Source: Gallionella sp. (lineage in GTDB: Bacteria > Pseudomonadota > Gammaproteobacteria > Burkholderiales > Gallionellaceae). Taken from it: 64,000 nucleotides of DNA. The stretch lies in the NCBI GenBank assembly GCA_028714075.1, contig JAQTMZ010000006.1, forward strand, positions 62,001 through 126,000, written 5' to 3'. The notes under the pieces were generated by a model. That model worked only from the letters and a program-made list of their open reading frames with translations. It was not told where the DNA came from and did no database searches. Shown in pieces: positions 4,366 through 62,067 of this stretch. The first letter of the stretch is position 1, and the number at the start of each line of letters is the position of its first letter. The translations under genes and the position numbers were made by a program.

Positions 4366-4440
4366 GCGGCAAAGTGTCGCGCGACACTTTGCCGCGCGAC
4401 ATCATGTCACATTCCCAGGCCAATTCTTCGTCCATACAAT
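4366..4440 (+). promoter_or_regulatory. Triple 15-bp operator array and promoter of the first TonB-receptor operon
   Basis: Three 15-bp palindromes abut with no gap: 4366-4380 GCGGCAAAGTGTCGC, 4381-4395 GCGACACTTTGCCGC, 4396-4410 GCGACATCATGTCAC. All fit GCGRCA-N3-TGYCRC. One base later comes a weak -35-like TTCCCA (4412-4417), then a 17-bp spacer and a -10-like TACAAT (4435-4440). A degenerate fourth copy lies at 4258-4272 (TCGATAAAGTGTCGC). The rest of the 4147-4488 gap shows no gene. Regulator identity is unknown. Confidence 0.75.
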
Positions 4441-4488
4441 CCGCCCGCTTTAATTTTCGACAATAACTATAGTTTCGGAGGATGGAAG

Positions 4489-6723
4489 ATGAAAAGGCAA
4501 AAAGTTTTTGTATTGGGCGTAATCACGCTGGCAATTAGCCAGGCGGCATATGCCGAGATGGGCATGTTGCCGGAGGTGTCCGTCACCTCCACGACGATTG
4601 ATGACCGCTTCGATTCCAAGCGCGGCGAACCGAGCAATACCAACATCATCAGCGGCAAGAAAGTGGATGACGAGCATGGCAAGAATCTTCTGGACGTACT
4701 GGAGTCCATTCCCGGGGTAACAGCGGAATTGCAGAGCGGCGACTCCATCAAGATCATGCTGCGTGGCGTGGAAAACCAGCGCTACATGGGTGAGAAGCCT
4801 GGGGTGGCGATTGTGATCGACGGCGTGCCGGTCAATGAGCGCACCGGGCGCGTGAATGTCGATCTGGATAATATCGAATCGATCAAGGTCATCAAAGGCG
4901 GGGCATCTTACTTATATGGCGAAGACGCCCTGTCCGGCGCGGTCGTCATCACCACCAAGCGCGGCGCGAAAATGGCCGGCTTCACTGCAAGCGCGGAAAC
5001 CGGCAATTTCCAGTATCACAAGGGTTTGATGCGCGCAGGATTTTCGAAGAATGATTGGATCGGGCATATCCAAACTTCGACCGCCAAGGCGCTGGACTAC
5101 TACTACCAAGGAAACTATTACCGGCATTACACCGACGGCAAGCTGCAATACCTGGTCGATGGCACCAGCGACGTCACATTCGGCTTTGAAAGTTCCAAGC
5201 GCAATAAAGACAGCCATGGCACGGTACGCGGTGCGGCCAATGCGCTGCTCGACCCAAAGAGCTTCAACAGCCTGGGAGCGAAAGATTATGCACGCAAATA
5301 CGATGTCGGGCTGAACAAGCTGTATCTGACCTATGCCAAGGATTTCGAGTCCATGGGCAACCTGATGCTCAATACTTATTCGTATGCCGATCACACTAAT
5401 TTCTGGCAAGGCGGTGCGGGGGTTTTCCTCAGGAATGCGGCCAAGACAAATTTGGGCAGCATCGGCAATTTTAACGATGCCTTTTCTACTGGGGTCGACC
5501 AGAACCAGGTGCAGCGCGGTGCCAAGGCCGAGTGGCGCAAAGATGGCGAGCGCAATGCATTTATGGCCGGGCTGGACACGCGGCGCGACAATGATCGCCA
5601 GAAACAAACAGCGCTGACCTACTATTCGGCCAAGGCCACGCCCACAAACACCACGACGAACCTCCTGATTGCACCTGGTCAGATAACAGGAGATTTTGTG
5701 AACCGCATCAATACGAATGCGCTGTACGGCGAAGGAAAGTTCAAAGTTGCGGATCCGCTGACGCTGACGCTGAATGTGCGCCACGATGATTTGAAGATCG
5801 GCTACGAGGATTACCTCAACAGGCTGAATCTTGGCACCAAGTTCAAGGTGTGGTCGGAACGTCTGGGTGCGAACTATTCGCTATCTCCTACCCATGAGTT
5901 GTACGGCAACCTGTCCACCGGTTTCCGCACGCCTACGGCGCAGCAATTGTATGCGGGCAGCATTACCCCGACCGGGGCGGTGGCCAGCAACCCCAACCTG
6001 AAGCCGGAGCATTCGCTGAACCAGGAAATCGGCCTGCGCAGCAAAACGGAATGGTTGGAGGTGCCGCTGGATATTGATGTGGCGCTGTTCCAACTGGATC
6101 GCAAAGATTTCATCCTGAATCAGGGCGGTCAGTATTCCAAGATAAATGGTACGGCGTTGACTGACATGTGGCAGAACGTAGGCGGCGTGCGCAACCGCGG
6201 TCTCGAGCTGGCACTCAAGACCAACGCCAGCCAAACCTGGTCGGGCGATGTGGCCTATACCTACCTGGATGCCAGGTTCACCCGCAACGATTCTTTCTAC
6301 TTGCAAACCGGCCCTATGGCCGGACCAACCTACACCAAGTACAACGCCACCGGCAATGTCGTGCCGCGCACGCCGCGCCACAAGCTGAACTTCGCCGGAC
6401 GTTACCGCCCAATGGAAAAAATGACGGTCACCGCCGAGGTAAATACGCAATCCGGCCTGTACGCGGATGAGCTGAACTGGATCTGGGTTGGCGGCCGCAC
6501 GGTAACCAACCTGATGGCCAGCTATGAGTTCAAATCTGACACCAACACAAAGTGGTCGCTGTTTGCGCGGGCGGATAACCTGTTCAACCGGTTTTATTAT
6601 TCCACTATCCGCGCATCTTCTGATTCAAGCGGCAACCAAGACGGGAAATTCAACATCGAAGATGCCTCCATCGTCGTCAATCCGGGCCGCGTGTTGACAG
6701 CCGGTTTGACGGTGAATTTCTAA
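4489..6723 (+). CDS. TonB-dependent outer-membrane receptor (copper-block receptor 1)
   Basis: Outer-membrane active transporter, 744 aa. A signal peptide (MKRQKVFVLGVITLAISQAAYA) is followed by a plug domain with NIISGKKVDDEHGKNLLDVL and VAIVIDGVPVNERTGRVN, then a beta-barrel ending in the typical aromatic terminus LTAGLTVNF. The TonB box is probably PEVSVTST near residue 27. GGAGG lies 8 bases before the ATG. It begins an operon with the DUF4198, polyferredoxin and DsbD-like genes, under the triple operator. No substrate motif is visible in the plug; copper as substrate is inferred only from neighbours and shared operators. A siderophore or other metallophore receptor is the alternative. 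Confidence 0.9.
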   Translation: MKRQKVFVLGVITLAISQAAYAEMGMLPEVSVTSTTIDDRFDSKRGEPSNTNIISGKKVDDEHGKNLLDVLESIPGVTAELQSGDSIKIMLRGVENQRYMGEKPGVAIVIDGVPVNERTGRVNVDLDNIESIKVIKGGASYLYGEDALSGAVVITTKRGAKMAGFTASAETGNFQYHKGLMRAGFSKNDWIGHIQTSTAKALDYYYQGNYYRHYTDGKLQYLVDGTSDVTFGFESSKRNKDSHGTVRGAANALLDPKSFNSLGAKDYARKYDVGLNKLYLTYAKDFESMGNLMLNTYSYADHTNFWQGGAGVFLRNAAKTNLGSIGNFNDAFSTGVDQNQVQRGAKAEWRKDGERNAFMAGLDTRRDNDRQKQTALTYYSAKATPTNTTTNLLIAPGQITGDFVNRINTNALYGEGKFKVADPLTLTLNVRHDDLKIGYEDYLNRLNLGTKFKVWSERLGANYSLSPTHELYGNLSTGFRTPTAQQLYAGSITPTGAVASNPNLKPEHSLNQEIGLRSKTEWLEVPLDIDVALFQLDRKDFILNQGGQYSKINGTALTDMWQNVGGVRNRGLELALKTNASQTWSGDVAYTYLDARFTRNDSFYLQTGPMAGPTYTKYNATGNVVPRTPRHKLNFAGRYRPMEKMTVTAEVNTQSGLYADELNWIWVGGRTVTNLMASYEFKSDTNTKWSLFARADNLFNRFYYSTIRASSDSSGNQDGKFNIEDASIVVNPGRVLTAGLTVNF

Positions 6724-6734
6724 GGGAGAAAGTC

Positions 6735-7757
6735 ATGCAGAAAAAAACTTTATTGAATGCGCTATGCCTGGCCGCGCCGCTGCTGTTTCCAACATTGGCA
6801 TTTGCCGCAGCAAGCGCGCCGGTGGCGACACAACCCCGACAAAGCATGGCAGCGGGCGAACACGCCGAACATGGCGAGCCTGTCGGTGCAGGCGGCGCGG
6901 AGGTTAAAGACAAAACATCGGGAGGCCGGGGCAAGTTCATGGCATGGACCGCATTCCCCATATTAAAAATCAAGATGGGCAGCGAAGGCCGTGAGCGCAG
7001 GGTCGTTACCGTTATTCCGCAGGGCATTGCGGCAAACAGCATCGATGCCTACTCCAACGACATCAAGGATGCCAAGGGGCACCGCCAGCTTCCGCTCGAC
7101 ATGGCGGGAGCCAAGCTGGACAAACCGGAGGCTGGCGGTTTTCACTGGCTGGTGGCGCGCGAAGAGCTGGACGGCGAGGTACGGGTAGCATCTACCGTGC
7201 ATTTCTTCAGCAACCCCGGCAAGAATCCGACCGCCATGTTCATGCAGCAGAAGCATGAACTGGAAATCATTCCCCAGCCGTATCCACGCGAGCATTCGCG
7301 CTATCGCGCCGACGAGGACTGGAAATTTCTGGTGCGCTTTAATGGCAAACCATTCGCCAGCCAATGGGTCAGGCTGGAAACCCAAAATGGCACCAGGACA
7401 AACTTTGTCAGCGATGCACAGGGGGTAATCACCGTGCATTTGCCGGGCGATTTCAAGGCGGAGGCCGAGCAAAAAAATGCAGACAGCCATAGCCACGGGC
7501 GGCGCGGTGCAGATTTTGTTTTGGCAACAAAATATATAGATGGCGGTAAAACCTATCTGACCGCATTCAACGGCAGCTATGGCCCGGATGCATTTGACCA
7601 GCGCAGCCTCGCGATGGGGCTGGGGTTTACGCTGTTGGGCATGATAGGTGCCGCGCCGTTGCTGCGGCAGCGCAAGGCAACGAAAAAGCCAACCGATGCC
7701 GGGCAAACCGCCGATGCATCTGCGGTACCTGAAACCAGCAAAAACAAGGAGGCCTGA
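6735..7757 (+). CDS. DUF4198-like periplasmic protein with C-terminal membrane anchor
   Basis: 340 aa. Signal peptide MQKKTLLNALCLAAPLLFPTLAFA, then a His-rich stretch (AGEHAEHGEP), a beta-rich domain with the carboxypeptidase-regulatory-like phrase FNGKPFASQWVRLETQNGTR...SDAQGVITVHLPG, a second His patch (SHSHG), and one C-terminal membrane helix (AMGLGFTLLGMIGAAPLL). DUF4198 proteins are usually linked to nickel, cobalt or other metal uptake. It starts 11 bp after receptor 1 and ends 1 bp before the polyferredoxin gene, so it is co-transcribed. A role as periplasmic metal-binding partner of receptor 1 is inferred. Confidence 0.72.
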   Translation: MQKKTLLNALCLAAPLLFPTLAFAAASAPVATQPRQSMAAGEHAEHGEPVGAGGAEVKDKTSGGRGKFMAWTAFPILKIKMGSEGRERRVVTVIPQGIAANSIDAYSNDIKDAKGHRQLPLDMAGAKLDKPEAGGFHWLVAREELDGEVRVASTVHFFSNPGKNPTAMFMQQKHELEIIPQPYPREHSRYRADEDWKFLVRFNGKPFASQWVRLETQNGTRTNFVSDAQGVITVHLPGDFKAEAEQKNADSHSHGRRGADFVLATKYIDGGKTYLTAFNGSYGPDAFDQRSLAMGLGFTLLGMIGAAPLLRQRKATKKPTDAGQTADASAVPETSKNKEA

Positions 7758-7758
7758 C

Positions 7759-8811
7759 ATGCTAAGCAAAATTTTCCCGACGCTGACGCGTTTCCGCTTC
7801 ACGATCCAGCTCATCATGCTGTTCGTTACCGTGTACGGCGGCGCGCTGCTGGGCACTTATACGGTGGATCGCATTTCGCAGGCGCTGCCTTCGCTGGCCT
7901 GCGCATACGACAAGCAGACCGGCGATCACTGCATTTTGATTGTCGCGCAACACCAGCTTCATCATCGCATCGGCGAAGCACTGGTCAAGGCGCAGGAGAT
8001 TACCTTAAATGTGTTTATTCCGACGCTCATCTCGGTGGGTGTGTTTTTCTCCCTGTTCTTTTTTCTCAACAAGGCGTTCTGCGGCTGGGTATGCCCGATG
8101 GGCACGGTGCAGGAAGTAGTCTTTCGCATCGGCAGAAGACTGGGGAGGCCGCTGAACCGCTTCGCTCCGGGCAATGTCGGCAAGGTGCGCCCGGTCAAGT
8201 GGCTGATGCTGCTGGTGCTGGTGCTCGGCCTGCCGTTGATGGCAGGCATGGGCACTGCATCCAATGAATTGGGCGACCCTTATTGCCAGGTGTGCCCGTC
8301 GCGTCTGGCGACGACCCTGCTGACCGCCGATACCGAACAGATTGCGCTGCGCACTTCAACGGGCATCAACTTCTTCCTCGGTGCAGCAGGCAACGCGCTA
8401 TTCGGTTTTGTCATCATCGCCGCATTGGCGGTGCGTCTGCCGTTCTGCCGCATCTGCCCGCTGTTGTCGTGGAACGCACTGTTCCAGCGGCTCTCGCCGA
8501 TGCAACTGGTAAAAAAGCAACATGACAAATGCGCAAAGTGCGGCGTGTGCGAGAAAGCCTGCCCGATGGATATTCACGAGATCGGCCAGGAGTACGGCAA
8601 AAAAGCATTCCACGAGGACTGCACCCTGTGCGGCCGCTGCGTGGAGTATTGCCCGGACGATGATGTGATCCAGATCAAGTTCTTCGGCATCAAATTGTTT
8701 GGTTCCTCCCGCGAGTATTACAAGCAGCGCGTGAAACTGGAAACGCCGGAAGGTTTGCCGAAAAACAAGGTGATCTGGCTGGCTCAGGCGAAGGAAAACC
8801 AGCATGGATGA
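7759..8811 (+). CDS. CcoG/NapH-like membrane polyferredoxin
   Basis: 350 aa inner-membrane iron-sulfur protein. Several membrane helices carry FCGWVCPMGTVQE, YCQVCPSR and FCRICPLL motifs; the C-terminal domain has two 4Fe-4S clusters (CAKCGVCEKACP and CTLCGRCVEYCP). This is the layout of NapH, NosR C-terminus and CcoG/RdxA. CcoG is known to act as a cupric reductase, so a role in reducing Cu(II) for uptake is a reasonable inference here; the sequence alone does not prove it. AAGGAGG lies 8 bases before the ATG. It follows the DUF4198 gene with 1 bp between them and overlaps the next gene by 8 bp. Confidence 0.85.
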   Translation: MLSKIFPTLTRFRFTIQLIMLFVTVYGGALLGTYTVDRISQALPSLACAYDKQTGDHCILIVAQHQLHHRIGEALVKAQEITLNVFIPTLISVGVFFSLFFFLNKAFCGWVCPMGTVQEVVFRIGRRLGRPLNRFAPGNVGKVRPVKWLMLLVLVLGLPLMAGMGTASNELGDPYCQVCPSRLATTLLTADTEQIALRTSTGINFFLGAAGNALFGFVIIAALAVRLPFCRICPLLSWNALFQRLSPMQLVKKQHDKCAKCGVCEKACPMDIHEIGQEYGKKAFHEDCTLCGRCVEYCPDDDVIQIKFFGIKLFGSSREYYKQRVKLETPEGLPKNKVIWLAQAKENQHG

Positions 8812-9463
8812 GTTTTTTAATCCGGCGTTGATCCCGCAGGAAACCACGCTGTTCGCCATCTGGCTGCTCGGCTTATCAATGGGTCTTACCGCCTGCACCG
8901 TCACCTGTCTGCCGTTCATGGGCACTTGGGTATTGGGGCGCGGCGGCTCCCAGACACAGGCATTGCGCGATACCGCCTTGTTCGTCTCCGGCCGCATCAT
9001 CGCCTACACCCTGCTCGGCGCAATCGCCGGCGGAGCTGGAGTATGGCTGGCGCAGGCGATGCGCGGCGGAACCGGCAATGCGGTTATCGGCCTGGCATCC
9101 ATTGCGGCAGGCGTGTGGCTGCTGCGCGGCAGCAAACCGCATGCACCTTGTGGCGTAGCGCGCGGCGCGGGCGCCACACCGCCGCTGCTGATGGGCTTCT
9201 CGCTGAGCCTGACCCCGTGCGCGCCGCTGGCTTCATTGCTGGCGGTGTGTGCCACGGCAGGCAGCGTCAAACTGGGCATGGCGAACGGCATGGTTTTCGG
9301 GCTGGGTGCGGCATTGACCCCGTTGCTGATCCTGCTGCCGCTGATCAGCCTGTTCGGCAAAAACCTGCGCGACAACCGCGAGTGGATCACGCGCTGGATA
9401 CGCTGGGGCGCGGCGGCAGTGCTGATCCTGCTGGGCTTGCGGCGGTTGATACTGGTGTTGTGA
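8804..9463 (+). CDS. DsbD/CcdA-like (DsbD_2, TauE/SafE-annotated) six-helix membrane protein
   Basis: 219 aa, about six membrane helices. It has LTACTVTCLPFMG in the first helix and SLSLTPCAPLASLLAVC in the fourth, the paired Cys/Pro motifs of the CcdA/DsbD_2 group that is often labelled sulfite exporter or UreH-like. Such proteins move reducing equivalents across the inner membrane or help metalloenzyme biogenesis. It overlaps the polyferredoxin gene by 8 bp and ends the first copper operon. Likely role: keep periplasmic copper-binding thiols reduced together with the polyferredoxin (inference). A complex hairpin (CCTCAA...TTGAGG, 9595-9620) follows 130 bp downstream. Confidence 0.78.
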   Translation: MDEFFNPALIPQETTLFAIWLLGLSMGLTACTVTCLPFMGTWVLGRGGSQTQALRDTALFVSGRIIAYTLLGAIAGGAGVWLAQAMRGGTGNAVIGLASIAAGVWLLRGSKPHAPCGVARGAGATPPLLMGFSLSLTPCAPLASLLAVCATAGSVKLGMANGMVFGLGAALTPLLILLPLISLFGKNLRDNREWITRWIRWGAAAVLILLGLRRLILVL

Positions 9464-9623
9464 GGCATGGCTGATTTTACGGTTATGCCAAGGTGGCACA
9501 GGCAATGTCCGGCGCAGCAAAAACGCTTGGTGCGTGTCGGGTTCGTGACCGATCCGACACCGGCGCAATAAACAGCCGTGTGATCTGCTCCTGCCTCAAA
9601 ATCGATAATCGAGCTTGAGGAAT

Positions 9624-9683
9624 GCGACAAAATGCCGCGCGACATCATGTCACATTCCAATTCCCGTTTATCGGAATTAGACT
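9624..9683 (+). promoter_or_regulatory. Double 15-bp operator and promoter before the GNAT gene
   Basis: Two abutting sites: 9624-9638 GCGACAAAATGCCGC and 9639-9653 GCGACATCATGTCAC; the second is identical to the last site of the first array. A -35-like TTCCAA (9655-9660) and a -10-like TAGACT (9678-9683) follow with a 17-bp spacer, the same geometry as at the other copper-block promoters. The untranslated leader to 9801 is about 110 nt. Confidence 0.7.
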
Positions 9684-9800
9684 TCGCATCGCCAAGTCAG
9701 CAACGCCAGTTGCCTCCTCCCCGAGAGCTGCCGTTGAATTCAGCGCTGGCTTGGCATCTTTCAGTCAGTACATTTTTCACAATACACACCGGAGGCCGTC

Positions 9801-10109
9801 ATGCAAAACACTTTCACCGTGCACTGCATCCCGTGGCAAGCGGGCGCCCCGCTATTGCAAGCCATCCGTGTGGCCGCGAGCAAGACCGGGCTGATGGATC
9901 AAGCCAAAGCGCAGGCTGACAAACTGGATGAGCAATGCCGCCATGCCCTTGCGCTGAGCAAAAACGGCGATGCCATCGGCTGCGCGCGTATCACGCAGGA
10001 TGGGCGAATCGAACGCATGGTAGTGTTGCCGCATGAACAGCGGGCGCTGGTCGAAACGGCGTTAACCGAAGTGTTGAACGATTATTCCAACTTGCGTTGT
10101 AAACAATAA
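9801..10109 (+). CDS. Short GNAT-like N-acetyltransferase-domain protein
   Basis: 102 aa, no signal peptide, so cytoplasmic. The stretch IRVAASKTGL...DEQCRHALALSKNGDAIGCARITQDGRIERMVVLPHEQRA matches the core of ElaA-like GNAT domains, where the GRIERMVVLP strand precedes the acetyl-CoA-binding loop. It is shorter than a full GNAT domain (about 140 aa) and the usual R/Q-x2-G-x-G/A loop is not evident (the sequence is EQRALVETAL), so acetyl-CoA binding is doubtful. GGAGG lies 6 bases before the ATG. It is a single-gene unit with its own double operator and a strong terminator. Function in copper physiology is unknown. Confidence 0.65.
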   Translation: MQNTFTVHCIPWQAGAPLLQAIRVAASKTGLMDQAKAQADKLDEQCRHALALSKNGDAIGCARITQDGRIERMVVLPHEQRALVETALTEVLNDYSNLRCKQ

Positions 10110-10212
10110 TAATTCTGTAGGCTCGAAGGGTGCATTTCCCGTCAGATAAAGCCTGCACACCATTACAGGCTCGATAGCAGGCCTGCCGCAAACCGCCCCG
10201 CCACTGTTGTTG

Positions 10213-10243
10213 ATCGCCCCACATGCTCGCCATGCGGGGCGAT
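10213..10243 (+). terminator. Terminator after the GNAT gene (module copy A)
   Basis: ATCGCCCC...GGGGCGAT stem with an ATGCTCGCCAT-containing loop, followed by TTGTTTT. The region 10170-10260 aligns with 13385-13467 after the copper-storage gene (shared GCCTGCCG, AACCGCCCCGCC, TTG/CTGATCGCCCC, TCGCCATGCGGGGCGATT and final GTGCGAC). In this copy the GTGCGAC leads into a decayed operator (10256-10270, GCGACGTATTGTGGC). Confidence 0.75.
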
Positions 10244-10325
10244 TTGTTTTGAAGTGCGACGTATTGTGGCTACGTCATAACTGAAGGTGAACTTGCGCCG
10301 CAATTATGCCGCACCAAAGCGCGGC

Positions 10326-10385
10326 GCGACATATTGTCGCGCGGCAATATGCCACATTCCAAGTCAAACAAATTGCATCGATAAT
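10326..10385 (+). promoter_or_regulatory. Double 15-bp operator and promoter of the CxxxM TonB receptor
   Basis: 10326-10340 GCGACATATTGTCGC and 10341-10355 GCGGCAATATGCCAC abut; a poor third copy (GCACCAAAGCGCGGC) fills 10311-10325 in the same 15-bp register. A -35-like TTCCAA (10357-10362), 17-bp spacer and -10-like GATAAT (10380-10385) follow. The receptor ATG is 34 bp further on with AAAGGGAGAAG as ribosome binding site. Confidence 0.75.
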
Positions 10386-10419
10386 CGCGCCGCATTTTTT
10401 ACTTAAAGGGAGAAGCGTA

Positions 10420-12669
10420 ATGCAATTGAAGCGTATAACTATCTGTGTCGCGTTGGCGTTTTCGTCCGGCGCGTTTGCGGCTGAAACAACCGGGACCACC
10501 CTGTCAGAGGTTAAGGTGATCGGAGAAAGAATCAAGCCACTGCCGGCTTTGAGCGACTCGGCGCTTGGTGGGGGAAATATTACCCATCTGCGCGCATCCA
10601 CCAGCGATACGGCAAAACTGCTTGAGGATCAGCCCGGCGTCAGCCTTTATGGCGCCGGCGGTGTTTCCAGCCTGCCGGTGATTCACGGCCTGGCGGATGA
10701 CCGTGTGCGCGTCAAAGTCGATGGCATAGACTTCATTGCCTCCTGCCCGAACCACATGAATTCGCCGCTTTCCTCTATCGACCCGACCAACGTTGGCAGC
10801 GTCAAGGTATATGCCGGTATCACGCCGGTGAGCGTCGGCGGCGACAGCATCGGCGGCTCCATCGTCGTCGATTCGCCTGCACCGGTGTTCGCCGCCCCCG
10901 GTCAGGGCAGTCTCACCAAGGGCGAGGTCGGTGCCTTCTACCGCAGCAACGGCAATGCGAAAGGCGGCAACCTTTCCGCCACCTATGCCACCGAGTCCAT
11001 CAACCTGACTTACTCCGGCGCGACCGCAGAATCCAATAATTACAAAGCGGGCGGCAATTTCAAGACGAGAACGGACACCGGTGTTACCGGGCATACCCTG
11101 CCGCTCGACGAAGTCGGTTCGACGGCTTACAAGACCCGGAATCACACCCTCGGTTTCGCGATGAAAGGCGGCAATCACATCGTCGAAGCCAAGCTGGGCT
11201 TACAGGACATCCCTTATGAGCTTTACCCGAACCAGCGCATGGACATGATGGGCAATACCCAGCATAGCTTCAATCTGCGCTATCTCGGCCAGCTCGGTTG
11301 GGGTGCGCTGGAGGCACGGGCCTATCATGATAAGGTCGATCACTTCATGGAATTCGGCCCCGACAAAAAGTTCTTATATACCGCCGGCAATTCGACCCAG
11401 GGCATGCCGATGAACACCCAGGGCAAGACGACGGGCGCCACCGTCAAGGCGAGCATCGCCCTGACCGAGCAGGATCTCCTGCGCGTCGGCGGCGAATTCC
11501 AGAATTATCGCCTCGATGACTGGTGGCCGCCCGTGGCAGGCGCTGCGGGAATGGGACCAAACGCTTTTTGGAACATCAACAACGGCAAGCGCGACCGCAC
11601 AGCACTGTTTGGCGAATGGGAAAAGAATTTGAACCCGCAATGGCTGACCATGCTTGGCCTGCGCTATGAGCGGGTAAACACGAATGCCGGCCAGGTTCAC
11701 GGCTACAACCTGGCCACTTTCCCGACGGCGGGAGCGGGTGGAATGATGAACCAGACCAGAGATGCCGTCAGCTTCAACAACGCCAAGCGCGACAAGACCG
11801 ACAACAACTGGGATATGAGCGCCTTGGCGCGTTACACGGCAAACGCCAATAACGACATCGAATTCGGTTTTGCCCGCAAAGTGCGCTCGCCCAACCTGTA
11901 TGAACGCTACACCTGGTCCACGGCGAACATGATGACGATCATGAATAACTTTGTCGGCGACGGCAACGGCTATATCGGCGACGTCAACCTGAAACCGGAA
12001 AAGGCGCACACGCTTTCTGTCACCATCGACCGGCATGATGCAGACAACAGTTGGGAGTTCAAGGCCACGCCCTATTACACAAGGGTCACCGACTACATCG
12101 ATGCCGTGCAATGGAATGGCGCGACCAACGCCGTGCGCGCTCCGTTGCTGACAAACCAGTTCGTCGTGCTCAAATACACAAACCAGTCGGCACGGCTTTA
12201 TGGTCTCGATCTCTCCGGCCATATGCCTCTGGCCAAGACCGGCATGGGCGAACTCGGCCTCAAGGGCTTGCTCACCTACACCAACGGCAAGAACCGCAAC
12301 ACGGGTGATGACCTCTACAACATCATGCCGCTCAACACCAAGCTCACGTTGACGCAGAAGTTTGGGGGCTGGGATAACGGTATCGAGGTTGTGGCCGCAA
12401 AGGCCAAGAACCAGCTTTCCAATGCGCGCAACGAAATCAGAACACCGGGCTATGGCCTTGTTAATTTGCGGGCGACCTATTCATGGAAGCAGGCACGCGC
12501 CGACTTCGGTGTCGAGAACCTGTTCAACAAGCTCTATGCCCTGCCGCTCGGCGGCGCCTATGCTGGGCAGGGAACGACCATGTCGATCAACTCCGCCGAC
12601 ATGCCTTGGGGCATCCCCGTTCCCGGCATCGGACGTTCGCTTTATGCTGGCGTAACCTTCAAGTTCTAA
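10420..12669 (+). CDS. TonB-dependent receptor with OprC-like CxxxM copper motif (receptor 2)
   Basis: 749 aa outer-membrane transporter. Signal peptide MQLKRITICVALAFSSGAFA, TonB box around TLSEVKVIGE, plug domain with RVRVKVDGIDFIASCPNHMN and a barrel ending SLYAGVTFKF. In the plug, CPNHM is a Cys-x3-Met pair in the same context as GCPNRMDPP of the copper transporter OprC/NosA, where that Cys and Met bind copper. This is the best sequence evidence in the window that the block handles copper. It is a single-gene unit with its own double operator and a strong terminator at 12685-12717. Confidence 0.92.
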   Translation: MQLKRITICVALAFSSGAFAAETTGTTLSEVKVIGERIKPLPALSDSALGGGNITHLRASTSDTAKLLEDQPGVSLYGAGGVSSLPVIHGLADDRVRVKVDGIDFIASCPNHMNSPLSSIDPTNVGSVKVYAGITPVSVGGDSIGGSIVVDSPAPVFAAPGQGSLTKGEVGAFYRSNGNAKGGNLSATYATESINLTYSGATAESNNYKAGGNFKTRTDTGVTGHTLPLDEVGSTAYKTRNHTLGFAMKGGNHIVEAKLGLQDIPYELYPNQRMDMMGNTQHSFNLRYLGQLGWGALEARAYHDKVDHFMEFGPDKKFLYTAGNSTQGMPMNTQGKTTGATVKASIALTEQDLLRVGGEFQNYRLDDWWPPVAGAAGMGPNAFWNINNGKRDRTALFGEWEKNLNPQWLTMLGLRYERVNTNAGQVHGYNLATFPTAGAGGMMNQTRDAVSFNNAKRDKTDNNWDMSALARYTANANNDIEFGFARKVRSPNLYERYTWSTANMMTIMNNFVGDGNGYIGDVNLKPEKAHTLSVTIDRHDADNSWEFKATPYYTRVTDYIDAVQWNGATNAVRAPLLTNQFVVLKYTNQSARLYGLDLSGHMPLAKTGMGELGLKGLLTYTNGKNRNTGDDLYNIMPLNTKLTLTQKFGGWDNGIEVVAAKAKNQLSNARNEIRTPGYGLVNLRATYSWKQARADFGVENLFNKLYALPLGGAYAGQGTTMSINSADMPWGIPVPGIGRSLYAGVTFKF

Positions 12670-12684
12670 AGTTGCAGCGAAAAC

Positions 12685-12717
12685 AAAAAGCCGCCGATTT
12701 TATCCGGCGGCTTTTTT
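12685..12717 (+). terminator. Rho-independent terminator after receptor 2
   Basis: AAAAAGCCGCCG, a seven-base loop, then CCGGCGGCTTTTTT; a perfect stem with a T-run, 15 bp after the receptor stop codon. Confidence 0.9.
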
Positions 12718-12788
12718 GTCGGCAGCCTATAACAAGGTGCGGGGCGACACCGTCGATAACCTGCCGCAAACCCTGTCTCAAACAGGGC

Positions 12789-12832
12789 GCGACAATATGC
12801 CGCTTATCCGCCGCACGGTGTGAGGTTATACT
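12789..12832 (+). promoter_or_regulatory. Single 15-bp operator and promoter of the copper-storage gene
   Basis: GCGACAATATGCCGC at 12789-12803, immediately followed by -35-like TTATCC (12804-12809), a 17-bp spacer and -10-like TATACT (12827-12832). Just upstream, 12752-12787 repeats the phrase CTGCCGCAAACC seen in terminator module A and forms a CCCTG...CAGGG hairpin. Confidence 0.68.
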
Positions 12833-12924
12833 TGCGCCGTGCAACATGCGCACAATGATTTTTGTGGCCGCGTGCTCATGCCTGTTTTGCCGGCTTACAT
12901 TTATCAACTTTGGGGAGATTAACC

Positions 12925-13383
12925 ATGGACAGAAGAGAAATGCTTAAAGTGACCACAGGAGGCCTGATACTTGCAGCAGCCGGGAGTACGGTGTTTGCCG
13001 CAGAAAAAACCAAGCAACCTGCCGCCCATCAGCACCAGCATGAGGCGAACAAGAACCAGGGGTTGATCGATGCCGCCGCCGACAGCGTGAAAAAAGGCCA
13101 GGCATGCCTTGGCCATGGCCTTTGGATGTTGAGCCAGCGCGAATACAAGGATATGGCCGTGTGCGCCATGCGCGTCAGCGACATGGTTGCCGCCTGTACC
13201 GCGATTGAGCAGCTTGCCAGCTACAACTCGCCGAACCTCGTCAAAATGGCCAGGGTAGTTATGGATATTTGCAAGGACTGCGAAAAGGAGTGCCGCAAGT
13301 TCGAAAAAGATGAGGAAATCTGCAAGCAGACGGCAGATTCCTGCGTCACCTGCTTCAATGAGTGCAAAAAAATAGCGGCTTGA
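12925..13383 (+). CDS. Tat-exported four-helix-bundle copper-storage protein (Csp1-like)
   Basis: 152 aa. The N-terminus MDRREMLKVTTGGLILAAAG is a twin-arginine signal, then a His-rich linker (HQHQHE) and a helical domain with ten Cys spaced along helices (GQACLGHG, AVCAMRVSDMVAACTA, DICKDCEKECRKFEKDEEIC, DSCVTCFNECKKIA). This Cys arrangement is that of the Csp family, whose members fill a four-helix tube with many Cu(I) ions; Csp1 of methanotrophs is also Tat-exported. GGGGAG lies 9 bases before the ATG. It is a single gene with its own operator and terminator. Folded export through Tat suggests it may acquire metal before or after export; which is not known. Confidence 0.88.
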   Translation: MDRREMLKVTTGGLILAAAGSTVFAAEKTKQPAAHQHQHEANKNQGLIDAAADSVKKGQACLGHGLWMLSQREYKDMAVCAMRVSDMVAACTAIEQLASYNSPNLVKMARVVMDICKDCEKECRKFEKDEEICKQTADSCVTCFNECKKIAA

Positions 13384-13418
13384 TGCCAAGCCTGCCGGGG
13401 TAACCGCCCCGCCTGCTG

Positions 13419-13449
13419 ATCGCCCCGCCTGTTCGCCATGCGGGGCGAT
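13419..13449 (+). terminator. Terminator after the copper-storage gene (module copy B)
   Basis: ATCGCCCCG...CGGGGCGAT stem followed by TTTTCTT. It is homologous to the terminator at 10213-10243, and the homology runs on into the operator at 13461. Confidence 0.8.
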
Positions 13450-13460
13450 TTTCTTGGGGT

Positions 13461-13505
13461 GCGACAATATGTCACATTTTCAGACTGCTTCTCCCTCTGT
13501 AACAT
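13461..13505 (+). promoter_or_regulatory. Single 15-bp operator and promoter of receptor 3
   Basis: GCGACAATATGTCAC (13461-13475), then -35-like TTTTCA (13477-13482), a 17-bp spacer and -10-like TAACAT (13500-13505). The ATG is 58 bp further on with AAGGGGGAG as ribosome binding site. Confidence 0.7.
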
Positions 13506-13563: not shown

Positions 13564-15741
13564 ATGAAGAAGCAGTTGTTTAATAGCGGGAAATTTTTCG
13601 CATTGAGTTGTATTTATGCAAGCGTGACTACGGCATTCGCGGCGCAAGAAGCAGTAACCGAGCTTCCTGCCGTTACCGTCACCGTTGGCCGGGGTGCGAA
13701 CCTTCAGGAGATGGACATGAGCACGACGGTGATGTCCAGAGAGCAAGTGCAACAGTCTCCGGCGACTTCCGTGCAGCAGATCATCAACAAAATACCCGGT
13801 GTTTTTGCCCCTGAACAAGCCGCAGGCCAAATGCACCCTACTTCGCAGGTATTCAGCATACGGGGATTCGGTACGACCACGAACATAAATACTCTGGTGA
13901 TGGTCGACGGCATTCCCATCAATGATCCGTATTTCCGCACCATAGACTGGGAGCAGATACCAAAGGACACCATCGAACGGATCGAAGTGATCCGCGGCGG
14001 CGGCGCCACCAGCATGTGGGGCAACCTCGCGATGGGTGGTATCGTCAACATCGTGACACGCGAACCGGCAGCCGATGAAAAACGCATCAATGCCAGTTAC
14101 GGCAGCTTTAATACGAAAACCGGCGATGTGGCGGCAACCCTGGCTTCCTCCGAGAAACTTAAAGTGGGTGTAAATCTTGGCGGGACAAAAACTGACGGTT
14201 ACAACAAGGTGCCTGCCCAGTACCTGAGTTCGCAAATGGTCCCGACCGCTTCGCATGCGGGTAACCTGACATTGTCTGCCTTCTACACACCATCGCAAGA
14301 CTCAAAATATTATTTAAGGGTACTCGGGCATAAGATACAGGAACATGGTGCGCTCTGGAGCAATACGAGCAACTCCTGGGACAAATACCAGATCAACGGA
14401 GGCGGCTCGACGAAACTATCAGGCGGCGGTAGCGTCAACGTAAATGGCTGGTTCAACAAGGGTGAAATGGATACACAGAATGCTGCCACCAACCCCTCTT
14501 ATAATATCTTGACGCGCGCCGCGACCACCCCTTATGTGTCTCAGATTGAACAGGCGAAATACCACAGCCTGGGCGGTTCGCTGTTCTATAAAAACAACTT
14601 CGAAAATACCCAAAACTTTATGGCCGGCGTTGATCTGCGCGGGATAACAGCCAACGATAACGAAAATTTTTACGATAGTACTGGAGCCATGACTGCGCAT
14701 ATCGTTGCACGTGCCGAGCATCGCTTTCAGGGCATCTTTGCGCAAGGAACTTACCGGCCAAGCAGTATCCCCCTGGATGTTACGTTTGGCCTGCGCGAAG
14801 ATTTTTTCCAGACATCTAACGGTAGCCTGACCAACCAGGTCGGCGCTGGCGCTGCGGTAGTTAGCAATCTGGCTAATAAGACATATCGCCAATTCGATCC
14901 GCGCATCGGCGCCAAGTACTATTTTTCGAATGGCTTCGATGTGCGTGCTGCGCTATACAAGAATTTTGCAGCGCCGGGGATGAACCAGATGTATCGCAGC
15001 ACACGGAGCGGCACCAGCTACCTTGCCTTTAATGCAAACCTGACCCCGCAGAGCAACACCGGACAGGAAATCGGCATCGATTACAACCAGCCCGGAATGG
15101 ATGTGGCTCTTACTCTCTTTAACAACAAGCTTAACGGTTATATAGATTATGCCCCCGTGTGTTCCAGTGTGGCGGCAGGCGGATGCGATGGTAATGCTGC
15201 CATAGCCGGAACCGGGTTTAATAATGGCACCGTTAAAACAATCAACCAATACGTGAATGCCGGGGATGCCACACTGAAAGGTGCGGAACTATTGGCGAAT
15301 TGGCAGGCCAGCGAGACCGTGCAACTGAGCGGCGGGGTCACGCGGACTATCGCCTACCTCACCCGCTCCGCTTATCCAACGGCAGCGCCGATCAATCTCC
15401 AGCTTGGGCAAGTTCCAAGCTGGATGGCAACGCTTGCGCCAACCTGGCAGGCTACGCCCAGTTTGAAGCTGACGCTTCAGGTCAAAAGCTTTCCAAAGTA
15501 TTGGTATAACACCGCGCACAAGCAACAATGCGATGCGGCAACGCTCGCCGATGTTGGATTTGCTTATAAGTTTAGCAAGGCCGTTGATATTTATGGCAGC
15601 GTGCAAAACATAGGTAGCCAAAACTATAATGATAACGGGTTGAATTACACCGCGACGCAAGGCACGACTATCGAACCGACCACCGTCCCCACTTTGGGAA
15701 TACCGTTCAATATGAACGTGGGGGTCAGAGTAGCGTTCTAG
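13564..15741 (+). CDS. TonB-dependent outer-membrane receptor (copper-block receptor 3)
   Basis: 725 aa. The start at 13564 follows a strong AAGGGGGAG site and opens a signal-peptide-like N-terminus (MKKQLFNSGKFFALSCIY...TAFA). TonB box ELPAVTVTVGR; plug with FSIRGFGTTTNINTLVMVDG and the RIEVIRGGGATSMWGNLAMG strand; barrel ending FNMNVGVRVAF. The extracellular part has a Cys pair (PVCSSVAAGGCDG). It is the first gene of a run leading to the sialidase-like, TlpA-like and tonB-exbBD genes; the gap of about 115 bp after it holds a hairpin. Substrate not evident from sequence; copper is inferred from context. Confidence 0.9.
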   Translation: MKKQLFNSGKFFALSCIYASVTTAFAAQEAVTELPAVTVTVGRGANLQEMDMSTTVMSREQVQQSPATSVQQIINKIPGVFAPEQAAGQMHPTSQVFSIRGFGTTTNINTLVMVDGIPINDPYFRTIDWEQIPKDTIERIEVIRGGGATSMWGNLAMGGIVNIVTREPAADEKRINASYGSFNTKTGDVAATLASSEKLKVGVNLGGTKTDGYNKVPAQYLSSQMVPTASHAGNLTLSAFYTPSQDSKYYLRVLGHKIQEHGALWSNTSNSWDKYQINGGGSTKLSGGGSVNVNGWFNKGEMDTQNAATNPSYNILTRAATTPYVSQIEQAKYHSLGGSLFYKNNFENTQNFMAGVDLRGITANDNENFYDSTGAMTAHIVARAEHRFQGIFAQGTYRPSSIPLDVTFGLREDFFQTSNGSLTNQVGAGAAVVSNLANKTYRQFDPRIGAKYYFSNGFDVRAALYKNFAAPGMNQMYRSTRSGTSYLAFNANLTPQSNTGQEIGIDYNQPGMDVALTLFNNKLNGYIDYAPVCSSVAAGGCDGNAAIAGTGFNNGTVKTINQYVNAGDATLKGAELLANWQASETVQLSGGVTRTIAYLTRSAYPTAAPINLQLGQVPSWMATLAPTWQATPSLKLTLQVKSFPKYWYNTAHKQQCDAATLADVGFAYKFSKAVDIYGSVQNIGSQNYNDNGLNYTATQGTTIEPTTVPTLGIPFNMNVGVRVAF

Positions 15742-24319: not shown

Positions 24320-24973
24320 TCAAATAAGGCCGTGCTCCACCGCATATACGGCGGCCTGCACGCGTTTGGCGATGTTGAGCTTGCGCAGGATGCCTTGCAC
24401 ATGAATCTTGATGGTAGATTCCGACAGGCCGAGTACATGGGCGATTTCCTTGTTGCTGGCGCCACGGGCGAGCATAACGATGATTTCCCGTTCGCGCGGA
24501 GAAAGCTTGCCCGGATCAACATCCACTACGGCAACATTGTCCTTGGACGGAACGCGCAGAGAATCGGCCAGTTTGTGCGCTATTTGCGGCGACATCACGG
24601 ATTCACCGCGTGCCGCCCGCTGTATGGATTCCAGCAAAAACTCGGTATCGATATTTTTCAGCAGATAGCCGCGTGCCCCAGTGCGTAGCGTTTCCAGCAG
24701 ATCTTCGGCATCCTCCGAAACGGTAAGCATGACAACCTGCGTATCCGGCACATCTTCCACCAGCACACGCAAGGCTTCCAGCCCGCTGGTGCCTGGCATA
24801 TGCAGATCGAGCAGCACCACATCTGGCTTGAGTTGTTTTGCGCGCTTGATGCCCTCCAGCCCGTCGCCGGCTTCACCCACCACCTCAAACCCTTCATGCC
24901 GCTGCAATACCAGCTTGATGCCGCTACGAAACAGCGTGTGGTCGTCAACGATCAGAATGCGTGTCAGTTTCAT
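24320..24973 (-). CDS. NarL-family response regulator
   Basis: 217 aa. Receiver domain with LIVDDHTLFRSGI, phospho-acceptor Asp in VVLLDLHMPGTSG (about residue 56) and the conserved Lys in GYLLKN; C-terminal LuxR-type helix-turn-helix (LSPREREIIVMLARGASNKE...STIKIHVQGILRKL). The start overlaps the kinase stop (ATGA). Closest in layout to NarL; target is probably narK and respiratory genes. Confidence 0.92.
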   Translation of the reverse strand: MKLTRILIVDDHTLFRSGIKLVLQRHEGFEVVGEAGDGLEGIKRAKQLKPDVVLLDLHMPGTSGLEALRVLVEDVPDTQVVMLTVSEDAEDLLETLRTGARGYLLKNIDTEFLLESIQRAARGESVMSPQIAHKLADSLRVPSKDNVAVVDVDPGKLSPREREIIVMLARGASNKEIAHVLGLSESTIKIHVQGILRKLNIAKRVQAAVYAVEHGLI

Positions 24974-26889
24974 GCTTCAGAGTCTCTCCTGTGCGGCAGG
25001 GCAAGGCGCACCCAAGTGCCCTTGCCGGGTTTCGATTCCAGCGCCAAATCGGCGCCAATACGGTGCGCCCGCTCGCGCATGATGCTCAGCCCAACATGGG
25101 TATCGCCGGCATCGTGCGCGGTATCGAAGCCGCTGCCATTGTCCTTGATATTGAGAGTGCATTCTCCATCACAGGCGAGTTCCACGTCAACGCGGCTTGC
25201 CTTGGCGTGCTTGCGTACGTTGGAAAGCGATTCCTGCACAATGTGCATGGCCTGCAGCACATGTTCCGGCGGCATATCCGGTACCGTCCCGCGATGCGAG
25301 AAGACGGCGCGGATACCGGTTTGTCCCTCGAATTTCTCCAGCGCGCTACGCACGGCGGTTTCCAGATCGGCATTCCCAACCCGCGTACGGAAATGCACCA
25401 GCAGCTCGCGCACATCGTCATAGCTCTCCTGCACCCCTTCGCGAATTTGTTCCAAGCCCTGCAAGGCAGTCGCCACCTCCCCCTGTTGCAGATCGTTGCG
25501 CAACAGCTGCACCTGAATATTCAGGAACGCAAGCGACTGGGCAATACTGTCGTGCAGTTCCTGCGCCAGCAGGTTGCGCTCCTCGGACACCGCCATTTCC
25601 TTTTCGCGCGCAATGAGCCGCCGGTTTTCAATGGCGACACCGAGATGTTGCCCCACCGACTCCAATAAACGAATTTCCGATTGCGGCAAAATACGCGGGG
25701 TATCGAAAAACAGGTTAAGCATGCCCATCACCCGCTGTTTGGAGCGGATCGGAACCGCCACCACCGCCTGGAATCCGTCCCGTTTGCACCCATGCAACTG
25801 CGGGCGCGTCAATGGATTGGAAAAATCGGAGCTGACCGCAATGCCATCGCGTGCCACCTCCCCGCACAGGCAGTTGCCGACAGCGATGCAAGATTCTTCG
25901 TCAAGGAATGATTTGGAAACTCCGCGCGATGCGACAATCTGCATCTGCTCCCCCTTGGCGTCGACCAGGCGCACCACACCGTCGCGCGCACCGATCAGGG
26001 CAGCCAGTTTATCCAGCACAATGCCACACAGGGGTTCCGTTGCAGTCGATGAATTAAGGAACGCCGCCACATCGTAGAGCGCCGTGAGCTCGCGGTTCTT
26101 CACCTCGATGCTATGGGACTTTTCTTCCACCCGCTGTTCCAGCGTGACATAAAGATCCTGCAACTGGTCCGCCATCTGGTTGAACCCCTCGGCCAGTTCG
26201 CCGAATTCGTCCCGCTGGGTGAACTGCAGGCGCACACCAAAATCTGCCTTGCCCATGCGCTGAATACCCTCCCGCAGACGGTTGACAGGGCGCACCACCA
26301 TCAGCGAAAACAGATTCATCAGCAAGATCGTGCCGATAAACGCCAGGCTCACCAACCCGATCTGGAAGGAACGCAGCAGCAAAGTGGCATGGGCATTGCT
26401 CTGCTCTATCATCACCACCAAATCGTTCACAATATCGACAAAATTTTCTATGGCATACCGGTAGCTTGCCAGCATTTTTTCCTGTTCCGCGCGTTGCGTG
26501 GCATCGAGTATGCGTATGACACGAGGCTTGATGTCGGTCTGCCAGGCTTGATGCAATTTGCCCATCTGGGCACGCACGTTATCATCCTTGGGCAGCGAAA
26601 GCGGACGCCGTGGGTCGCCATGTTCAAGGTCGGACATGACTTTCTCGAATTGTGTGATCGTCGCTTCGATATCGTGCCGCAACTCGACGGAAGGTTGCCG
26701 CACCTGCTGGGCAAGCAAAAACGCGATGTGATACGGGCGCATACGTTCGCTGCCGGCATCGTTAATCGCCGCAGCTCCCCCCTCCAGCCGCCAGGATACA
26801 TAGAGCGTCGAGCTGATGGCAATCAGGGCAATGAGAAAATAAAACAACAGTAAACCGGTAATCTTTTCCTGGAGTTTCAATGTAACCAT
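24970..26889 (-). CDS. NarX-like sensor histidine kinase with Cys-rich GAF domain
   Basis: 639 aa. Membrane helix at residues 12-33, a periplasmic four-helix nitrate-sensor-like domain, a second helix (FQIGLVSLAFIGTILLMNLF), HAMP, a GAF domain (about 255-400), then HisKA_3 with the phospho-His in LLAQELHDSIAQSLAF and an HATPase domain (NVRKHAKASR, DNGSGFD, GLSIMRERA). The GAF has CIAVGNCLCGE and a later HGC, recalling the cysteine cluster of NarX. Overlaps its response regulator by 4 bp. Probably senses nitrate/nitrite. Confidence 0.9.
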   Translation of the reverse strand: MVTLKLQEKITGLLLFYFLIALIAISSTLYVSWRLEGGAAAINDAGSERMRPYHIAFLLAQQVRQPSVELRHDIEATITQFEKVMSDLEHGDPRRPLSLPKDDNVRAQMGKLHQAWQTDIKPRVIRILDATQRAEQEKMLASYRYAIENFVDIVNDLVVMIEQSNAHATLLLRSFQIGLVSLAFIGTILLMNLFSLMVVRPVNRLREGIQRMGKADFGVRLQFTQRDEFGELAEGFNQMADQLQDLYVTLEQRVEEKSHSIEVKNRELTALYDVAAFLNSSTATEPLCGIVLDKLAALIGARDGVVRLVDAKGEQMQIVASRGVSKSFLDEESCIAVGNCLCGEVARDGIAVSSDFSNPLTRPQLHGCKRDGFQAVVAVPIRSKQRVMGMLNLFFDTPRILPQSEIRLLESVGQHLGVAIENRRLIAREKEMAVSEERNLLAQELHDSIAQSLAFLNIQVQLLRNDLQQGEVATALQGLEQIREGVQESYDDVRELLVHFRTRVGNADLETAVRSALEKFEGQTGIRAVFSHRGTVPDMPPEHVLQAMHIVQESLSNVRKHAKASRVDVELACDGECTLNIKDNGSGFDTAHDAGDTHVGLSIMRERAHRIGADLALESKPGKGTWVRLALPHRRDSEA

Positions 26890-40670: not shown

Positions 40671-41696
40671 TTATTTCTTTGGTGCTTCTTTCTTTGCATC
40701 CAGCTTGCCTTCATGGAATATTTCAGGCACTGCTGCACCTTCGGCTGTCAGGATAGCGACGTTACCCTTGCCCAAGCGGCCAAGCGCATGGTCAACCAGG
40801 ATGAAATTAGCCGGAACTCGTGCTTTGAATTCCACCATTGTCGCGCCACCAGGGGGAACTACGGTAGTTTGTATATTTTTGTGCACGTCGCCAAGAGCAG
40901 CCTCAGGATAGACTCTATCCCAAATAGTTCCAATCCCGTGGAAAGCCGAAGTCAGGTTAGGACCGCCAACGCCAAAGAAAATACGGACATTGTCACCCAC
41001 TTTAACTTTCATCGCGTTAGCGCCCGTCAAGGCGGAGCCAGTTCCGTTCATCACCACGTTGGTAGGATGCTCGGCTGCCATCAAATCATCGTTATAGTCT
41101 TTATGGGCACCCTTGCCATCGGCATAAAGTTCACCTTGCATGATATAGAATTCTTTCTCAACCTTTGCCAAGCCGCCTTCTGGTTCGATCAGGATCATGC
41201 CGTACATGCCGCTCGAAATATGCATCGGGATAGGGCCGGTGGCGCAGTGGTAAACATACAAACCTGGGGTCGTTGCCTTGAAGACAAAAGATTTTTCTTC
41301 ACCAGGATTAACCTTTGTCGCTTCAGCGCCGCCACCTTGACCCCATACCGCATGCAGGTCAATGTTGTGCTGTACTGTGCTGGTTTTGCTATTTTTCAGC
41401 GTAAGTTCGATCGTGTCTCCCACGCGGGCACGCAGCATAGGACCGGGTACTTTTCCGTTGAATGTCCAATATTTGTATGTGGTCTTGGCTCCAGCGTCAA
41501 GAATTCCCTCCAGCTCTATAGCTTCCAGAGCCATTTTAACTGTTGTTGCGGCACGTTTACCTACCGGCTCTCCTACCTTGGTTGGGTCTTGATGAATGTC
41601 TACAGCCGCAGGACCTGCGCCTGCAGCCCATGCTGCCGACGATCCAAACGCCAACATGCCCAGTGACAACGCTCCGATGATTGCTCTTACTTTCAT
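40671..41696 (-). CDS. nirK: Copper-containing nitrite reductase NirK
   Basis: 341 aa periplasmic enzyme reducing nitrite to NO. Signal peptide MKVRAIIGALSLGMLAFGSSAAWA, two cupredoxin domains. Type 1 copper ligands are in HCATGPIPMHISSGM, type 2 ligands in HNIDLHA, the YHC His and SAFHGIG. Upstream (41853, 41970) are two copies of the same 15-bp operator that precedes the copper-block genes. Together with narK and NarXL this fits denitrification or nitrite detoxification. Confidence 0.95.
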   Translation of the reverse strand: MKVRAIIGALSLGMLAFGSSAAWAAGAGPAAVDIHQDPTKVGEPVGKRAATTVKMALEAIELEGILDAGAKTTYKYWTFNGKVPGPMLRARVGDTIELTLKNSKTSTVQHNIDLHAVWGQGGGAEATKVNPGEEKSFVFKATTPGLYVYHCATGPIPMHISSGMYGMILIEPEGGLAKVEKEFYIMQGELYADGKGAHKDYNDDLMAAEHPTNVVMNGTGSALTGANAMKVKVGDNVRIFFGVGGPNLTSAFHGIGTIWDRVYPEAALGDVHKNIQTTVVPPGGATMVEFKARVPANFILVDHALGRLGKGNVAILTAEGAAVPEIFHEGKLDAKKEAPKK

Positions 41697-41852
41697 GATG
41701 ATTCCTCTCCCTTAGTTTCATTAGATTATGAAAAACAAAACATACCACACCACACGCCGACAGTTGTGCCACCGATCGAATGGACAAACACTACAAAAAC
41801 AAACTTTAAACTACCGATTTAAATAAACAAACATCAATCGCCAAAACACGTT

Positions 41853-41984
41853 GCGACATTTTGTCGCATCATGCCTAAAGCTAATTCAGCCGTCAAGGAC
41901 AGCTAATAAAAATAACCCTAACAACAATTGTAAAGTCAGCCCACGAGAATCACGGATATCAATCACACTGCGGCATTTTGTCGC
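41853..41984 (-). promoter_or_regulatory. Two 15-bp operators in a direct repeat upstream of nirK
   Basis: 41853-41867 GCGACATTTTGTCGC and 41970-41984 GCGGCATTTTGTCGC. Each starts a 45-bp near-identical direct repeat (41853-41897 and 41970-42014; both continue ATCATGCCTAAAGCT and end CGTCAAG). They lie between the 3' end of rlmJ and the nirK start, so nirK is the only plausible target. The -35/-10 spacing seen in the copper block is not clear here. Confidence 0.68.
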
Positions 41985-42088
41985 ATCATGCCTAAAGCTG
42001 GCTCTACCGTCAAGAGAGCGCATTGCTCTCAAATTAAACGCCCTCCGGCAAAGCCGGAAGCCTATGGTCGTGACTACTACAAATAAGG

Positions 42089-61668: not shown

Positions 61669-62067
61669 ATGTCGCGTCCAATCAGAAAACTTATTGCATT
61701 ACTTTTGGCCGTTTGGTTGCCGCTGTTCGGCGGCAACGCGCTGGCCGGATCGGTTGCGATGCAATCGAAGAGCGGGGATTGCCATGCTGCGGTGGCGCAA
61801 CAAAACGGACATCATTCACAGCACCAGTATGCGCCCCAAGCGCAACTTGCCGCGCATCACGACACGCCTTCCGGCCAGCACGACCAGCAAAACTCATCCT
61901 GCCAAGACCACTCCCCCTGCCATCTGGTGTGCTGCGGGTATGTTGCCGGCTCCGCATTGGTGATTGCTGTGGAGCAACAGCCGGATCACGCCTTTACCCC
62001 TTACCTCGTTACACCCCGCACGCTCACCCTGCCACTGTTCGACCCCCCTCCTCTCGCCCGCGCCTGA
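61669..62067 (+). CDS. His/Cys-rich DUF2946-like periplasmic protein
   Basis: 132 aa. Signal-like helix MSRPIRKLIALLLAVWLPLFGGNALA, then a His/Gln-rich stretch (QQNGHHSQHQYAPQ, HHDTPSGQHDQQ), CQDHSPCHLVCCGY and a Pro-rich end. Such small His/Cys-rich proteins often precede copper or cation efflux operons. Likely periplasmic metal binding. The ribosome binding site is weak, so the start could be further upstream (61609). Confidence 0.6.
   Translation: MSRPIRKLIALLLAVWLPLFGGNALAGSVAMQSKSGDCHAAVAQQNGHHSQHQYAPQAQLAAHHDTPSGQHDQQNSSCQDHSPCHLVCCGYVAGSALVIAVEQQPDHAFTPYLVTPRTLTLPLFDPPPLARA

Follow-up and report, generated by a model that had tools for sequence, protein, structure and literature searches.

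The 64,000-nucleotide stretch of Gallionella sp. DNA analysed here (the window; positions 62,001 to 126,000 of contig JAQTMZ010000006.1) carries a palindromic box of 15 base pairs (bp), GCGRCA-N3-TGYCRC, in front of a block of largely copper-related genes and in front of nirK, the gene for copper nitrite reductase. The boxes probably constitute the regulon of a RegA-family response regulator centred on copper supply, with uptake being activated and nirK perhaps being restrained. The copper label is based on family models for Csp1, NirK and PCu(A)C that exceed their cut-offs, together with a TonB-copper match far below its cut-off.

We found 18 matches to the pattern over both strands of the window, corresponding to 11 distinct places, while 100 dinucleotide-preserving shuffles of the window gave a mean of 0.23 matches and a maximum of 2. 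The eleven sites had been listed in a preliminary description of the window, and every coordinate proved exact, the number being far beyond chance. The arrays of three, two and two boxes noted there do abut with an exact 15-bp period, and positions 4366-4395 form a perfect palindrome of 30 bp. The same description had set the sites apart from the boxes of CusR/CopR (TGACA-N4-TGTCA) and CopY/BlaI (TACA-N2-TGTA), likewise short palindromes before copper genes, on the grounds of spacing and flanks. With these patterns as given there, the distinction holds, as all eleven sites read GRCA-N3-TGYC and thus do not fit the former, and differ from the latter in both spacing and bases. Its proposal of a copper regulon stands insofar as the shared operator is real and the candidate regulon is largely copper-related, but not in the claim that the boxes of the block lie only before copper-block genes: the pair 9624/9639 precedes an open reading frame (ORF) of 102 amino acids without a family match, and only one of the three TonB receptors could be given any copper assignment. 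The copper block reads as follows.

4366..4410, plus strand: triple box array before a TonB receptor operon; -10-like TACAAT at 4435-4440, 24 bp past the array
4489..6723, plus strand: TonB-dependent receptor, no substrate assignment
6735-7757, 7648-8811 (4Fe-4S) and 8804-9463 (DsbD_2): ORFs after the first receptor
9624..9653, plus strand: double box before ORF 9801-10109; -10-like TAGACT at 9678-9683, offset 24
9801..10109, plus strand: 102-amino-acid ORF with its own double box upstream; no Pfam or NCBIfam match at an expectation value (E) <= 0.001; by eye, we take it to resemble part of a GNAT acetyltransferase
10326..10355, plus strand: double box before the second TonB receptor; -10-like GATAAT at 10380-10385, offset 24
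10420..12669, plus strand: TonB-dependent receptor; TonB-copper model TIGR01778 at 121 bits, below the cut-off of 472
12789..12803, plus strand: single box before csp1; -10-like TATACT at 12827-12832, offset 23
12925..13383, plus strand: Csp1-type copper storage protein; TIGR04401 at 139 bits, cut-off 100
13461..13475, plus strand: single box before the third TonB receptor; -10-like TAACAT at 13500-13505, offset 24
13564..15741, plus strand: TonB-dependent receptor, no substrate assignment

Across all 27 contigs of the genome (2.83 Mb) the strict pattern occurs at 30 distinct places, of which 11 belong to the window and 19 lie beyond it; the reversed pattern matches 6 times on one strand and 7 times on the other. 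All 19 outside places lie within the longest mechanically called ORF, and reading of the loci identified two of them as promoter regions, one before an outer-membrane protein gene (L021:4985) and one in the gap between regB and a gene for the copper chaperone PCu(A)C (PCuAC; L027:4994). The other 17 are taken as coding background, although some of the mechanical ORFs covering them may be spurious; 13 of the 30 strict places are thus promoter sites. The relaxed core GCGRC-N5-GYCGC is found at 95 places, as compared to 224 for its reversed control, and gives no discrimination at the genome-wide level.

The layout of the boxes corresponds to that of published RegA-type sites. PMC5506826 (this and the other PMC papers are cited from the excerpts available) quotes the motifs GNGRCRTTNNGNCGC for RegR, SSGNVRDNHYSNCSS for RegA and YSCGGC(5)GWCRMA for PrrA. 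All three share a 15-bp plan, GCGNC-N5-GNCGC, which the window boxes follow; among the 11 window sites exact matches number three for RegR, five for RegA and two for PrrA, rising to 11, 11 and nine when up to one mismatch is allowed. As a comparison set we used the 33 Rhodobacter capsulatus RegA sites determined by chromatin immunoprecipitation (ChIP) in PMC5359404. Scored in register with a matrix built from the window sites, using larger pseudocounts than in the co-occurrence and tree-test matrices described below, they reached a mean of 1.0, compared with -21.0 (standard deviation 1.4) for shuffles, none of 2000 scoring as high; that source seems to have chosen its tabulated ChIP sites by motif, and therefore their palindromy may be partly built in. 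Rotation of the ChIP sites abolished the score. The statement in the preliminary description that no described regulator has this site therefore has to be given up, since GCGRC-N5-GYCGC follows the published RegA/PrrA/RegR plan, the 33 RegA sites fit the window matrix, and the genome has regBA.

The genes for RegA and its kinase RegB lie outside the window (L027), divergent from the PCuAC gene, and the gap between regB and this gene contains one box and one degenerate copy. The RegA candidate (182 amino acids) consists of a receiver and a Fis-type helix-turn-helix (HTH) domain (PF00072 with 85.7 bits, PF02954 with 47.8 bits), and its best NCBIfam model is ActR/PrrA/RegA, NF033791 (189.6 bits, cut-off 250). 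The best model for the kinase is ActS/PrrB/RegB, NF033792 (251.3 bits, cut-off 350), and its sequence contains the quinone motif GGSTNPF, the H-box AHELGTP and the redox cysteine in GCKRIL. The HTH of RegA is alignable with that of PrrA (1umq) and with 3rqi. In the alignment with 1umq a histidine takes the place of Cys156, which is invariant in group 1 RegA, and this is why we did not file the protein as group 1. In group 1 operons, regA or regB is cotranscribed with senC. No senC was evident beside regBA, PCuAC being seen instead, with the ORFs judged by eye and no SCO1/SenC model run. The preliminary description had suggested searching for a co-conserved regulator gene, and the regB-regA pair, whose own promoter also carries the box, is such a regulator. 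Binding of the boxes by RegA is, judged from the sequences, very probable.

In two other genomes, a regB about 57% identical to that of our genome has a box next to it and is oriented divergently to a TonB receptor gene (L241 in G011, L222 in G012); G011 contains a second RegA.

Boxes and RegA are co-conserved. Among relatives of the receptor at 10420-12669, for which the best 80 of 240 loci were used, GYGRCA-N3-TGYCRC occurs within 700 bp upstream of the receptor in 36 of 80 loci. Over these loci we counted 38 boxes in the 31,878 bp that lie up to 400 bp upstream of the receptor and 17 in the 1,124,318 bp elsewhere. RegA homologues at E <= 1e-30 are present in 47 of the 80 genomes (40/50 and 7/30). 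With the strict pattern, RegA was found in 33 of 36 genomes having a box and in 14 of 44 lacking it (Fisher p 4.9e-8). With the matrix, the threshold was set at 12.9, the 99th percentile of the scores in 745 control stretches, and the region upstream of the receptor scores above it in 42 of 47 genomes with RegA and in four of 33 without. Absences are soft, as many of the genomes are metagenome-assembled. Within the genus, a RegA orthologue is present in 24 of 25 genomes, the exception being G017 (79% complete), and in 21 of these 24 regB is preceded by a box at no more than 300 bp, the stretch available being 119-243 bp at loci that ended sooner.

At three loci a second box with a -10-like hexamer is found downstream of the receptor (L111:10993-11043, L130:10914-10964, L136:10966-11016), in L136 after a gene judged by eye to be CRP/FNR-like. 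At six others (L227, L229, L234, L237, L242, L249) box promoters separate two genes, of which the downstream one mostly encodes a TonB receptor and the divergent one, as judged by eye, a TolC-like outer-membrane protein.

The position of the boxes relative to the promoter is nearly fixed. Downstream of 39 upstream boxes, TATAAT-like hexamers occur nine times at offset 23, six times at offset 24 and three times in total over 34 other offsets. In the window the distance from box end to -10-like hexamer is 24 at 4396, 9639, 10341 and 13461, and 23 at 12789; the TAACAT assigned to the 13461 promoter is a 4-of-6 match, with an equal 4-of-6 match at offset 22. Outside the window the offset is 24 for L021 and on the PCuAC side of the regB gap and 23 on the regB side. 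Since the last box ends 23-24 bp before the -10 element, its centre would be near -44 if the -10 element spans -12 to -7. A box centred near -44 is in the place of a class II activator. From this geometry we infer that RegA is likely to activate the copper genes.

We combined box and -10 element in a promoter profile of 53 rows chosen from 70 having both box and -10-like hexamer, so that the -10 element is built in and the unbiased count is that of the 39 boxes. The rows include four window promoters, L021 and many promoters from the genus; the PCuAC promoter was not among them. In our genome seven matches have E <= 0.0011: the four window promoters at 4396, 9639, 10341 and 13461, the opposite strand of the 9624 box, L021 and PCuAC. 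The next match is C4:18535 (E 0.079). At E <= 0.003 the profile has matches in 16 of 31 genomes, all of the same genus (16/19 within, 0/12 outside). Genes downstream in the 46 loci read include those for TonB receptors, PCuAC and regB, and many of the rows of these loci, including those facing the other way, have no match in the reference set.

At nirK the arrangement is different, each box following a promoter-like pair of hexamers.

40671..41696, minus strand: nirK, copper nitrite reductase; TIGR02376 at 311 bits, cut-off 296
41853..41867, minus strand: nirK box 1, directly after TTGACG (41896-41891), 17 bp and CATGAT (41873-41868)
41970..41984, minus strand: nirK box 2, directly after TTGACG (42013-42008), 17 bp and CATGAT (41990-41985)

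TTGACR-17-YATRAT has just these two matches in the window, each abutting a box. The unit of promoter plus box is present twice in 41850-42047, 117 bp apart and near-identical in sequence, i.e. as a duplicated promoter. Spanning about -6 to +9, the nirK box would cover the start site, so that bound RegA would be more likely to block transcription, and this position suggests a repressor-like role. We rate repression of nirK by RegA slightly below an even chance. According to PMC5435760, RegA can act on nirK in either direction, and repressing sites lie near the 5' end of the gene. The same order of promoter and box is found at nirK of G020; as boxes occur at this one alone of ten other nirK-like loci examined, the arrangement is thinly conserved.

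Several observations weigh against a RegA regulon centred on copper. The excerpt of PMC5506826 describes published RegA-type sites as degenerate and dissimilar and reports no motif in A. ferrooxidans, and in Methylomonas RegA-dependent TonB genes are not directly bound (PMC13274454, excerpt). Both the regulator and the kinase score under the curated NCBIfam cut-offs. The profile matches are partly circular, since promoters from these very genomes went into the profile, and the boxes of nirK (E 0.11 and 0.13) and csp1 (0.13) are at its noise level, below C4:18535. Co-occurrence is confounded by ancestry because many of the genomes without RegA are Burkholderiales. On the receptor tree, eight independent pairs differing in RegA gave a box difference in the same direction in 2.6, in the opposite direction in 0.1 and no difference in 5.2 (tree-aware sign test p 0.25; threshold 12.7, which adds L104 and L107 at 12.8), too few pairs to decide. 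L118, L122 and L163 have RegA without a good box, and G004, G010 and G018 have RegA with neither a box upstream of regB nor a profile match. Finally, a copper assignment is lacking for two of the receptors, for ORF 9801 and for the L021 gene.

The predominance of copper-related targets in the window would also be expected if another regulator that senses copper directly, such as CusR/CopR, a CRP/FNR-type protein or some other, bound the boxes, with regBA as just one of its targets. The four box-bearing genomes among the 33 in which no RegA was found point the same way, as does a CRP/FNR-like gene that by eye adjoins the receptor at some loci. However, the CRP/FNR-like family appears in only 7 of 80 neighbourhoods, compared to RegA in 47 of 80 genomes, and the motif fits the RegA ChIP sites, making a direct copper sensor quite unlikely. 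The five OmpR-type regulators of the genome were rejected as owners of the motif, as no strict place of the box occurs within 20 kb of any of them. Should RegA bind the boxes as an ordinary global redox regulator, the copper genes would simply be the members of its regulon that keep the clearest sites. RegA systems elsewhere are global (PMC5359404, PMC4064962), and weaker sites, such as those among the 95 relaxed places, could escape the strict pattern. Yet the reversed control has more places, 224, than these 95, and just two of the 19 strict places outside the window are promoter regions. Of five COX1-family matches in the genome, four over the cut-off, none has a box before its genes; the only relaxed match at these loci lies inside an ORF, and the classical oxidase targets are therefore without a clear box. 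We regard this broader regulon as rather unlikely. That the palindromes are RNA hairpins, terminators or repeats is highly improbable, and this reading was set aside: 4366-4395 did score as a terminator-like stem on the minus strand, but the distance from single boxes to the -10-like hexamer is fixed in many genera, the box centre is variable, and Rfam gave just one match in the nirK gap, at chance level (E 1, 16.7 bits, cut-off 49).

A RegA-family regulon centred on copper agrees with the known RegB/RegA systems (PrrB/PrrA, ActS/ActR, RegS/RegR) in kinase and regulator families, HTH, RegB quinone and redox-cysteine motifs and the 15-bp site plan. It differs from them in boxes that are near-perfect, arrayed and mainly before copper genes, in the location of regBA beside PCuAC, with no evident senC, and in the lack of a cysteine at position 156. 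RegR of Bradyrhizobium japonicum likewise controls denitrification genes and the copper genes copCAB; according to the excerpt of PMC4064962, however, nirK is not under RegR control there, the copper genes are others, and neither a receptor nor Csp1 is mentioned. Rhodobacter capsulatus RegA is linked to copper by binding it and forming a disulfide at Cys156 (PMC9147068), a link that requires the residue replaced by histidine here. CrtA of Bordetella and others shares TonB-dependent copper import, a heme-copper oxidase link and sometimes PCuAC, but its control is post-transcriptional via an upstream ORF, CruR (PMC12914433), unlike the promoter boxes here. In the open PMC literature no report connecting TonB copper receptors or Csp1 with RegA-type boxes was found among the matches listed. 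The component parts are already known, and the copper focus and the dual geometry seem to be new.

Elsewhere in the window, a NarL-type regulator and kinase pair, judged by eye, lies near a NarK-like transporter at 24320-26889, without a box there.

We propose that the motif belongs to a RegA-family (ActR/PrrA/RegA/RegR) response regulator, one dimer of which would occupy each GCGRC-N5-GYCGC palindrome, adjacent boxes placing dimers side by side. Bound to the last box near -44, RegA could act by class II activation at the copper-block promoters, PCuAC, regB and one outer-membrane protein gene. It would thereby activate copper import, storage and delivery as well as its own operon and restrain nirK, and both box positions are compatible with this. 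The likely input of RegB is a reduced quinone pool, given that its quinone-binding and redox-cysteine features are kept, and copper shortage of heme-copper oxidases could reduce this pool. A complete copper-economy switch, in which RegB/RegA senses shortage indirectly through the reduced respiratory chain that results from failing copper oxidases, boosts uptake, storage and delivery from -44 and simultaneously shuts off the copper-consuming nirK through the boxes over its start site, is a tentative proposal that we consider less likely than not.

The response of bacteria to copper shortage, unlike that to excess, is poorly known, and a survey of beta-proteobacterial copper proteomes describes acquisition systems as poorly known (PMC6769254). 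Our analysis suggests that copper supply in these bacteria is tied to the state of the respiratory chain. If this is true, they would have an unusually clean RegA-type motif where the excerpt of PMC5506826 had degenerate sites or none, and a concrete, testable answer to how copper shortage is met would come from a redox two-component system whose regulon is compact and centred on copper.

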